22,863 nucleotides of DNA. It comes from a virus. Both the position numbers and the translations under genes were made by a program. Below, piece by piece: positions 3,513 through 11,786 of this stretch. The notes beneath the pieces were generated by a model, which worked only from the letters and a program-made list of their open reading frames with translations, ran no database searches and was not told the DNA's origin. Position 1 is the first letter of the stretch. Each line of letters opens with the position of its first letter. The stretch covers positions 1 through 22,863 of IMG/VR virus record IMGVR_UViG_3300045541_000061; one strand, given 5' to 3'.

Positions 3513-3647
3513 ATGAAGTTTTGGAACATGGACAGGCTTAACCATCAGGTTAGGCTTGCCATGATCCGGTATGGATGCAAAACCGGACACTACGAGATAG
3601 GATATAGGTATGAGATTGATGGGACCATTAAATTGATATTGAGATGA
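3513..3647 (+). CDS. Small unknown protein, 44 aa
   Basis: The start at 3513 lies four bases after the previous stop. The open frame extends upstream to 3372, but that part overlaps the better gene at 3329-3508 in another frame and is taken as a shadow. The 44-aa product is basic at the start (MKFWNMDRLNHQVRLAMIRY) and ends with beta-like residues (YRYEIDGTIKLILR). Its stop is ATGA-coupled to the next gene. No family is recognised. Confidence 0.5.
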   Translation: MKFWNMDRLNHQVRLAMIRYGCKTGHYEIGYRYEIDGTIKLILR

Positions 3648-3895: not shown

Positions 3896-4296
3896 CCAAC
3901 GAACAAATCAGATCAGAACTAGCATACCGGATGACTCAGAAGTATCTGATCTATCTAGCGCTACAGGAGATCATGCTGGACAACTATGAGGACGTTCCAT
4001 TTTTGAAAGATTTTAATCTTGACTTGTTGACCAAACACAGGAATATGGTTTCTTCGCTGAAACGCAATGCATCCAAGGCTTTCAGGTTTATGCAAAACTA
4101 CGATCAAGGAGAAGTCACAATCAAACAGTTCCATTCCTTTGTCAAGGTCTTTGAGGCATTGCACACGGCAATTGACCAAGGAGGGGACAGGTATGCGAGG
4201 TTGTTGGATGACTTGGAAAAAGTATTGATTTTGCATGGGTTTAAGGAACCCGATGGGACTGAATTCACCAGCCCGATTGAAAGACCCGGTCAGTAG
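3892..4296 (+). CDS. Unknown helical protein, 134 aa
   Basis: The 134-aa product is mostly helical (QKYLIYLALQEIMLDNYEDV; FHSFVKVFEALHTAIDQGGD). It starts by ATGA coupling and is the last gene before a strong terminator; its TAG stop lies in the loop of that hairpin. No catalytic motif, HTH or membrane segment is visible. Position at the end of the early operon is consistent with an accessory replication factor, but that is inference only. Confidence 0.65.
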   Translation: MTNEQIRSELAYRMTQKYLIYLALQEIMLDNYEDVPFLKDFNLDLLTKHRNMVSSLKRNASKAFRFMQNYDQGEVTIKQFHSFVKVFEALHTAIDQGGDRYARLLDDLEKVLILHGFKEPDGTEFTSPIERPGQ

Positions 4297-10421: not shown

Positions 10422-10424
10422 TCC

Positions 10425-10566
10425 AGCCGAATACGAACAGCAATGTGTCGGCTATCGCTAGAGAACATTGCAGCACTGCCAGGGGTGCGATGTTCGGGAT
10501 AGGCGCGATTGGTGCTAGTGCAAAGCCTGTGAGGAGACTCCTGATTGCATCCAGCTTGGAAACTGG
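10425..10566 (+). ncRNA. Structured non-coding region with four hairpins
   Basis: This stretch is visibly more GC-rich than its surroundings and has no plausible ORF. It folds into consecutive hairpins. AGCCGA (10425-10430) pairs with TCGGCT (10448-10453). A 10-bp stem of GAACATTGCA (10463-10472) with TGCGATGTTC (10486-10495) contains one G-U pair. TGCAA (10519-10523) pairs with TTGCA (10545-10549), enclosing AGGA/TCCT. CCAG (10551-10554) pairs with CTGG (10563-10566). The G-U pair hints at RNA rather than a DNA site. It leads directly into the tRNA-like elements. Alternatives are a packaging (pac/cos) site, since terminase genes follow, or part of a large phage RNA of the GOLLD/ROOL kind, which often lie beside tRNA genes. 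Confidence 0.45.
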
Positions 10567-10581
10567 ACTGGGTTAAATTTA
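10556..10581 (+). promoter_or_regulatory. Possible promoter of the tRNA-like region
   Basis: TTG (10556-10558), 15 bases, then TAAATTTA (10574-10581), a near match to TAnnTTTG. The first tRNA-like element begins 27 bases downstream. The last base differs from consensus and the spacer is short, so this is weak. Confidence 0.25.
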
Positions 10582-10608: not shown

Positions 10609-10700
10609 AGTCAGGTGGTGGAATTGGTAGACGTATTAACTCCTTGCGATAATTTCAGAAACGAGAAAAGATTTACAGGTTCGAATCCTGTCCTCGACTC
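10609..10700 (+). tRNA. Class II tRNA-like element 1, abnormal
   Basis: The D arm (GTG, then GAATTGGTAGA, then CGT) and a perfect T arm (ACAGG, TTCGAAT, CCTGT at 10675-10691) are those of a leucine-type tRNA. The acceptor AGTCAGG (10609-10615) would pair completely with CCTGACT, but the 3' strand reads CCTCGACT, with one extra C at 10695. The anticodon stem TTAAC/GATAA (10636-10640, 10648-10652) has an A-A mismatch. Its 7-base loop TCCTTGC has C instead of U at position 33 and would give anticodon CUU, which does not suit a class II tRNA. The variable region is long (10653-10674) with a TTTC/GAAA stem. CCA is not encoded. It is either a decayed tRNA-Leu or Ser-like gene, or a tRNA mimic with another role. 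Confidence 0.55.
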
Positions 10701-10738
10701 AGAAGGTGCCAACCCCGAAACATGGAAAGACAAAGTTG

Positions 10739-10895
10739 GTGACAGCACGGAAAGACGGCAGATCATTAAGCATTTTCCCCTGCATGTGGAATGGATGAAA
10801 GTAATCAGGTAGATTCTCCCCAAAACTAGTGAGGTAATGAGAGGCAAAACAATTGTCTGACACTAGCAAAATCGTGACAGCTCGGAAAGACGGCA
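10739..10895 (+). repeat. 22-bp direct repeat pair, one mismatch
   Basis: The 22-base sequence at 10739-10760 (starting GTGACAGCAC, ending GACGGCA) returns at 10874-10895 with one change (A10747 to T10882). Its core GGAAAGAC also occurs at 10724-10731. The second copy ends five bases before the second tRNA-like element; the first lies 39 bases after the first tRNA-like element. CTAGTG (10826-10831) and CACTAG (10861-10866) can form a hairpin between them. The repeats suggest a processing signal or a duplicated RNA module. Confidence 0.6.
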
Positions 10896-10900
10896 TAATT

Positions 10901-11017
10901 GAAGGAGTGGCGGAATTGATAGACGCGTAACATAGTTATATGCTTGTTTTAAACGCATTAGGGATGTTAGATGGACATAGTGTCCTGTGAATACAGGTTT
11001 GAATCCTGTCTCCTTCA
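10901..11017 (+). tRNA. Class II tRNA-like element 2, enlarged anticodon arm
   Basis: The acceptor stem is perfect (GAAGGAG 10901-10907 with CTCCTTC 11010-11016), discriminator A11017, D stem GCG/CGC, and T stem ACAGG/CCTGT. The D loop has GA instead of G18-G19 and the T loop has T instead of C56, so the usual G19-C56 elbow pair becomes A19-U56, a compensatory change that suggests selection for the tRNA fold. TAACAT (10928-10933) pairs with ATGTTA (10964-10969) exactly where the anticodon stem belongs, but it encloses 30 bases instead of 7. Inside, TGCTT/ACGCA (one mismatch) frames a second 7-base loop GTTTTAA that has U33 and A37 and would read UUU. The variable arm carries GGACA-TAG-TGTCC. 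CCA is not encoded. A small intron or insertion is an alternative reading. Confidence 0.6.
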
Positions 11018-11048
11018 CAGTCATAGGATTATTGGGTTTTTGTTAGGA

Positions 11049-11078
11049 AAAGGTCTAGGTTTTGCCTAGACTTTTTTT
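11049..11078 (+). terminator. Terminator after the tRNA-like region
   Basis: GTCTAGG (11053-11059) pairs with CCTAGAC (11065-11071) around loop TTTTG, followed by seven T (11072-11078); upstream A residues extend the stem against the T run. The T run continues directly into TATCTTTG (11078-11085), a promoter -7 motif. Confidence 0.85.
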
Positions 11079-11252: not shown

Positions 11253-11786
11253 ATGGAAGTTTGGAAAGATGTAATTGGCTATGAAGGATACTATCAGGTA
11301 TCAAATCTAGGCAGAATTAAAAGCCTTGAAAGAAAAAGAATAGGATTGAAAGATCAAAAAATTAGGATTTACAAAGAATTGATCTTAAAACAGAAATTAA
11401 ACATTCACGGTTATTTTGAAGTTTGTTTATACTTAAAAAATAGTTCAAAATACCATAAATCTCATAGGATTATTTGCCAAGCATTTTTGCCAAACCCTGA
11501 AAATAAACCTCAAGTCAATCATAAAAATGGAGTAAAAACAGACAATAGGCTTGAAAATTTAGAATGGGCAACTTCTTCTGAAAATACAAAGCATTCTTTT
11601 GATAATGGTTTTCAAAAACCATCTTTAGGAGAAAAAAATGGGCATTCAATCTTAAATGAAAAAGATGTTTTAATGATTAGATCAGGTCAATTAAAAATGA
11701 CTCAAAGACAAATGGCTTCATTTTTTAATGTGAAACCTTCGACAATCAATTGCATAATTAAAAGAAGAAATTGGAAACATATTTAA
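11253..11786 (+). CDS. NUMOD4-HNH endonuclease with C-terminal HTH
   Basis: The 177-aa product has a NUMOD4 motif at residues 3-24 (VWKDVIGYEGYYQVSNLGRI). The HNH core is at 86-106 (VNHKNGVKTDNRLENLEWAT from V88), with H90 as the expected catalytic His. A C-terminal HTH spans about 132-173 (MTQRQMASFFNVKPSTINCI at its core) and probably reads the target site. This is a freestanding homing-type endonuclease. Its place just before the small terminase subunit also recalls HNH proteins needed for cos cleavage in HK97-like phages, but those lack NUMOD4, so homing is preferred. The gene is clearly more AT-rich than the terminase genes and carries its own promoter and hairpin leader. Confidence 0.9.
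   Translation: MEVWKDVIGYEGYYQVSNLGRIKSLERKRIGLKDQKIRIYKELILKQKLNIHGYFEVCLYLKNSSKYHKSHRIICQAFLPNPENKPQVNHKNGVKTDNRLENLEWATSSENTKHSFDNGFQKPSLGEKNGHSILNEKDVLMIRSGQLKMTQRQMASFFNVKPSTINCIIKRRNWKHI

Follow-up and report, generated by a model that had tools for sequence, protein, structure and literature searches.

A tRNA-like RNA element in the long non-coding stretch of a 22.9-kb IMG/VR virus record (analysed over its full length and hereafter called the window) is not a decoding tRNA. It is probably a phage-encoded, non-decoding tRNA mimic that would be processed like a tRNA and in which the anticodon arm would be an exchangeable module with a scaffold or tether role. Our computations establish its fold, its conserved body, a leader hairpin at a preferred spacing, replacement of the arm at an orthologous locus, the lack of a usable anticodon, and the wide spread of such elements. 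RNase P and the CCA-adding enzyme touch the acceptor, T arm and elbow of a tRNA, but not its anticodon arm. Because the conserved parts are those contacted by RNase P, the CCA enzyme and other tRNA enzymes, while the changing part is needed only for decoding, the sequences make tRNA-like processing without decoding most likely.

The usual explanations for the presence of tRNAs in phages are codon supply and evasion of tRNA nucleases. If our reading is correct, the tRNA fold also serves phages as a scaffold in tasks other than decoding, and standard tRNA finders hide or misname the non-decoding phage tRNAs concerned. The elements are small, and they are present in isolated phages too (e.g. Bacteroides phage BS-TP2).

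Fold and surroundings of the element

The window, like the contigs with which we compared it, is a metagenomic fragment. Its genes run in the order primase, helicase, long non-coding stretch, HNH endonuclease, terminase, portal, head protease and major head protein. The non-coding stretch (10421 to ~11250) is unusually long and holds, in order, a repeat element, a Leu-type tRNA-like element, the leader hairpin in two copies, the tRNA mimic, and terminator-like hairpins (Table 1), of which the one at 11053–11078 would terminate a non-coding transcript. The first-pass annotation had considered that the element with its abnormal arm might belong to a larger phage RNA, and it does lie within a non-coding region that runs from 10421 to about 11078. 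Relatives in Bacteroides phages and Bacteroidota-like promoter words would point loosely to the host.

Table 1. Features of the non-coding stretch and of the tRNA-like element within it (window positions).
Feature	Position	Strand	Basis or remark
Structured non-coding repeat element, upstream	10422..10575	+	two copies in L061, one in L004
Second Leu-type tRNA-like element	10610..10699	+	Rfam tRNA 20.9 bits, under the cut-off of 29
Spacer GGTGCCAACCCCGAAACATGGAAAGACAAAGTTGG with CCAAC/GTTGG helix, immediately 5' of leader hairpin	10702..10739	+	also in L004 and L325
Leader hairpin, copy two, TGACAGCACGGAAAGACGGCA	10740..10760	+	covariance model, 18.7 bits
Leader hairpin TGACAGCTCGGAAAGACGGCA	10875..10895	+	ends 5 nt 5' of acceptor
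Probable non-decoding tRNA mimic, type II Leu-like body	10901..11017	+	direct reading, RNA fold, covariance model
Acceptor GAAGGAG/CTCCTTC	10901-10907 / 11010-11016	+	7/7 paired; direct reading
D arm; D stem GCG/CGC	10910-10926; 10910-10912 / 10924-10926	+	direct reading
A19; U56	10919; 11000	+	direct reading
Replaced anticodon arm: 6-bp stem TAACAT/ATGTTA + 30 nt enclosed	10928..10969 (stem 10928-10933 / 10964-10969)	+	
Variable arm GGACA-UAG-UGUCC	10973-10985	+	
T arm ACAGG-TTTGAAT-CCTGT	10993-11009	+	direct reading
Discriminator A	11017	+	direct reading
Intrinsic-terminator-like hairpin GTCTAGG..CCTAGAC + T7	11053..11078	+	direct reading
NUMOD4/HNH endonuclease, nearest gene 3'	11253..11786	+	

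The repeat element is about 150 nt long and closed by CCAG/CTGG. Its exact pattern was found in IMG/VR in two related contigs only (at 2480–2634 and 3004–3147 of L061 and at 2164–2324 of L004). The second tRNA-like element has intact D and T arms, pairs its acceptor with a bulged C, and is without a regular anticodon arm; relatives are located at 114–256 of L003, 1494–1601 of L061 and 976–1084 of L004, and the tRNA-Leu-like element of L003 contains a 23-nt hairpin within its D loop. The second copy of the leader hairpin is followed by a unit of ~110 nt that has no T arm.

Direct reading of the main element agrees with the first-pass annotation on the intact acceptor (7/7), D and T stems and on an outer anticodon stem that encloses exactly 30 nt. 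That annotation overlooked, however, the type II Leu-like nature of the body and its variable arm. RNA folding of 10901–11017 yields a five-helix cloverleaf (-31.4 kcal/mol, z -2.06). The earlier suggestion that the G19-C56 elbow pair is replaced by A19-U56 was also correct. Because U56 occurs in only 2 of the 132 related elements, which we take to be the window element and its identical twin in L061, the substitution is a genuine, local change of the elbow pair. Together with the 7/7 acceptor and a covariance model match (described below), it supports the idea that the fold of this tRNA-like RNA is under selection. The identical copy is located at 4173–4289 of L061, where a near-identical 280-nt block (4013–4291) is too similar to the window for a covariation test; an exact-pattern scan of IMG/VR for the window element returned no additional copies.

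The 7-bp acceptor and the D and T arms with their elbow are features that the element shares with canonical decoding tRNAs, whereas the canonical 5-bp anticodon stem and 7-nt loop are absent. ARAGORN did not call the element in the window. Rfam returned no match in the window at gathering score, RF00005 included, and the element was also missing from the matches at E ≤ 5. Within the enlarged arm, the first-pass annotation had proposed an inner stem capped by a regular 7-base anticodon loop reading UUU. A 4-bp inner stem (AUGC/GCAU, 10940–10943 / 10955–10958) is present and is the only firm part, but the regular loop did not hold: the minimum free energy structure has a 6-nt loop (GUUUUA) and a bulged C, the centroid structure has an 11-nt loop, and the arm folded alone reaches a z of just -0.85. 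Because the predicted inner stem is weak and the loop irregular, the proposed UUU-reading loop is not established.

Leader hairpins, constant bodies and changing arms

The leader hairpin has the consensus U-GACA-[4-5 bp]-GAAAGA-[4-5 bp]-A in 132 units, which we parsed with a home-made program keyed to TT[CT]RANY T loops. In these units, which were chosen partly by the features counted here, a T precedes the hairpin foot in 117, an A follows the stem in 100, and the hairpin is separated from the acceptor by 4–6 nt in 89. The stem itself varies (e.g. CTTG/CAAG in L091 and CCGG/CCGG in L105). The hairpin core GACAGCNCGGAAAGACGG was found in at least 120 IMG/VR stretches, with about 5 expected by our own estimate from the size of the collection, and in two scans 93 and at least 120 stretches had this core with the T-loop sequence GGTTCGANTCC at a set range of distances behind it. 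Such combinations also occur in bacterial genomes of many phyla; several pattern matches on bacterial contigs that were host tmRNA genes were set aside.

Among stretches picked by the hairpin core and T-loop sequence only, with no requirement for pairing, a perfect 7/7 acceptor directly follows the hairpin in 31 of 74 (3.6 expected) and 59 of 99 (3.0 expected) unique cases. The case for a conserved fold rests on this test, since pair counts on an alignment of 33 elements are high partly by construction, the elements having been selected for pairing. A covariance search was carried out with a model built from 33 trimmed other phage elements, excluding both the window and its close relatives; it matched the window at 10875–11019 with 47.3 bits (E = 1.8e-10). 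Across units, the acceptor, the D arm with its GG and the T arm are kept, and the region from D to T arm ranges from ~20 to 110 nt. ARAGORN does not accept 40 of the 83 strict tRNA-like elements that bear the hairpin, in contrast to 36 of 315 hairpin-less ones from those contigs. The hairpin is nevertheless not specific to odd elements, as it is also located 5' of ordinary tRNAs and of some ORFs.

The contrast between body and arm is seen in 19 Leu-type elements, whose bodies, but not arms, were selected by sequence pattern: body identity averages 89 per cent, whereas arm identity (46 per cent) equals that of shuffled arms (46 per cent). Their arms are 22–109 nt long, and four of the elements are arranged in tandem in L325; at position 6535 of L238, the same body carries a Leu(AAG)-like loop. 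The clearest exchange of arms is seen at one orthologous locus immediately 3' of a DUF2303-type gene, where the upstream proteins are 86–100 per cent identical and the same hairpin is followed by three unrelated arms. One arm is found in L151, L185, L199, L248 and L256; another in L218 and L229, where the acceptor has changed in a compensatory manner from GGTATCG/CGATACC into GGTACCG/CGGTATC; and L179 carries the third, which is tRNA-sized. The isolate Bacteroides phage BS-TP2 carries this locus, with no tRNA annotated there. In this phage of Bacteroides salyersiae BG8 (L185), the element spans 1526–1633. The first-pass annotation had allowed that the window's arm might prove a local insertion or lack homologues with the same extension, yet many phages carry extended or replaced arms.

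As a set, the arms fold no better than shuffled sequences (mean z -0.4), and their longest sense/antisense matches to their own contig (9.5/9.3) resemble those of shuffled arms (9.3/9.3), which gives no sign of guide-like arms. Given these results, a module function is demonstrated neither for the arms as a set nor for the arm in the window. The small arm in L066 (4 bp and 4 nt) indicates that an arm need not carry a payload.

These observations delineate a large set of RNAs from many unrelated phages, with a leader hairpin, a conserved tRNA body and a freely changing anticodon/variable region. The set is apparently undescribed: in the open-access literature that we searched, no class of phage tRNA-like RNAs with an altered anticodon arm was found. 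More tentatively, these RNAs could form a widespread class in which a genome often encodes several constant tRNA scaffolds, each with a UGACA-hairpin(GAAAGA) leader and a hypervariable arm open to exchange, and which would act as a modular RNA system that binds factors of the host or the phage. The flanking genes (primase/helicase, RusA, terminase, ParB/methyltransferase, pyrophosphatase) include no constant partner.

Several related elements depart from this layout. In a GC-rich, hairpin-led tRNA-like family (L193, L226, L250, L255, L257, L258 and L261), the anticodon arm is near normal and a variable arm of ~45 nt contains GCATCCGAAGG. A second T-arm-like sequence, GGTTCRANTCC, is present inside the enlarged arm at L003 323, L208 5187, L221 5337, L275 3296, L173 6848 and L386 2888.

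Preferred reading and alternative explanations

Under the preferred reading, in which the element is a non-decoding mimic, the non-coding region would be transcribed as a single untranslated RNA. Host tRNA enzymes would recognize the tRNA body, with RNase P cutting just 3' of the leader hairpin, the 3' end being trimmed, and CCA being added by the CCA enzyme. The product would be a presumably stable, L-shaped RNA of ~117 nt, in which the anticodon arm would serve as an exchangeable protein- or RNA-binding module and not as a decoding part. This RNA might act as a scaffold or tether, with an architecture like that of YrlA Y RNAs.

Alternatively, the bodies could punctuate phage transcripts, acting as RNase P and RNase Z cut signals that separate them; the hairpin would then cap the upstream RNA at its 3' end, and the arms would drift freely because RNase P ignores them. 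Such a role would explain why only the parts that RNase P contacts are conserved, and it fits both the frequent position of the hairpin right after a stop codon (within 10 nt in about 20 of 123 cases; 2 nt after TAA in L151 and L179) and the mostly co-directional nearest long ORFs (78 of 105 upstream). We nonetheless regard it as unlikely: neutral drift would not yield the identical arms of L151 and L248, whose upstream proteins are 92.7 per cent identical, the arms often exceed the needed length, and there are multi-unit arrays without intervening genes (L227 and L325). Less likely still, the RNA may be a decoy or competitor that engages either a host defence directed at tRNAs or a tRNA-binding enzyme, recognition being through acceptor and elbow and the arm being altered to escape cleavage or sequestration. 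A constant body with a hypervariable arm would suit an arms race, and the tRNA-like domain of YrlA has been proposed as an anticodon-nuclease competitor (PMC7790460). No anticodon loop is conserved, however, which makes a classical anticodon-nuclease decoy unlikely, and no defence partner was found. We rejected the specific version raised in the first-pass annotation, a nuclease decoy with a UUU anticodon, since the relatives have the body in common but not an anticodon loop, and the 7-nt loop of the window is not stably formed.

Functionless decay or recombination of tRNA genes is quite improbable as a general account. Clearly broken copies do exist (the T loop at 2960–3000 of L004, and a hybrid with an ORF insert at 3552–3957 of L061), but elsewhere compensatory changes keep the acceptor, elbow and T arm while the arm alone changes, and both the A19-U56 exchange and the strong excess over chance argue against decay. 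The other suggestion of the first-pass annotation, a tRNA with a small intron (here, one that does not self-splice) in its anticodon arm, we consider highly improbable. The intron mode of ARAGORN accepts 37 of 43 enlarged elements, yet it also accepts 33.9 ± 1.5 after their arms are shuffled; removal of an insert thus restores a normal anticodon arm hardly more often than in shuffled arms. The anticodons so predicted are unrelated to the bodies (e.g. the L061 copy is called tRNA-Pro(AGG) in a Leu-like body), and Rfam reported no intron family in the window.

Comparison with Ro60-linked elements and other RNAs

A possible precedent for the arm as a protein module comes, by analogy, from L404 and L425, where hairpin-led elements adjoin Ro60-like genes. 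The gene directly 3' of the L404 element encodes a DUF2828/DUF7788 protein, assigned to a PHROG named RNA-binding, that resembles Ro-like proteins annotated in mycobacteriophages. In the flanks of 16 phage Ro60-like DUF2828 genes (L404, L425–L431, L433–L439), the word ACAGCAA occurs 38 times (2.5 expected), at 14 of the 16 loci and on the sense strand only. It lies inside the enlarged arm of the tRNA-like elements of L404, L425, L430 and L431, and L432 has the near variant ACTGCAA. We regard ACAGCAA as a candidate motif for Ro binding by phage Y RNAs. In a Listeria phage study, abundant unannotated RNAs upstream of a Ro-like gene were suggested to be Y RNAs (PMC12282133).

The window yielded no match to the Ro-like family PF11443, but the 22.9-kb record is a fragment and the control set was also without a match. 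ACAGCAA is absent from the window's arm, and its copy at 10437 is not conserved in L061. Because no Ro-like gene of the PF11443 type was found in the window and its arm has no Ro-linked motif, its likeness to the Ro60-linked elements is an analogy in architecture and not membership. YrlA and other bacterial Y RNAs (Rfam RF02553; Chen et al. 2014, as cited in PMC12282133 and PMC7790460) reportedly contain a tRNA-shaped domain that does not decode, and are said to occur in bacteria and mycobacteriophages. The window element resembles them in having a tRNA-shaped domain in a non-decoding RNA, as do the Ro60-adjacent phage elements with ACAGCAA in the arm; it differs in its complete acceptor stem and conserved leader hairpin, and in lacking the Ro-linked motif and any RF02553 match in the window.

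With phage tRNA-Leu genes, the window element shares body sequence, the type II variable arm and discriminator A73, but unlike them it has no usable anticodon arm and is missed by ARAGORN and Rfam. Phage tRNAs associated with theta ribozymes also adjoin a conserved small RNA element; theta ribozymes, however, are located at the 3' end of phage tRNAs and have an HDV fold (PMC10879173), whereas the 21-nt hairpin of the window is on the 5' side, and no HDV-like Rfam match was found. An HK022-type put antiterminator was likewise rejected as the identity of the leader hairpin, given no HK022 sequence match and a stem II of the wrong size (put ~37 nt); E. coli genomes had no match to a lambdoid-like hairpin locus, and no other Rfam family matched the hairpin or element.

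tmRNA (RF00023) is similar in combining a tRNA-like body with a large insert at the position of the anticodon arm, but the window element has no tag reading frame, no match to the pseudoknot model and no RF00023 match in Rfam. On other phage contigs, tmRNA genes matching RF00023 are situated near hairpin-led tRNAs (L087 636–1096, 61.8 bits; L099 124–509 on the minus strand, 110.5 bits). At 1747–1800 of L396, an actinobacterial tmRNA-like gene has three consecutive GAC-stem-GAAAGA hairpins in its pseudoknot region, and their word is that of the phage leader hairpin.
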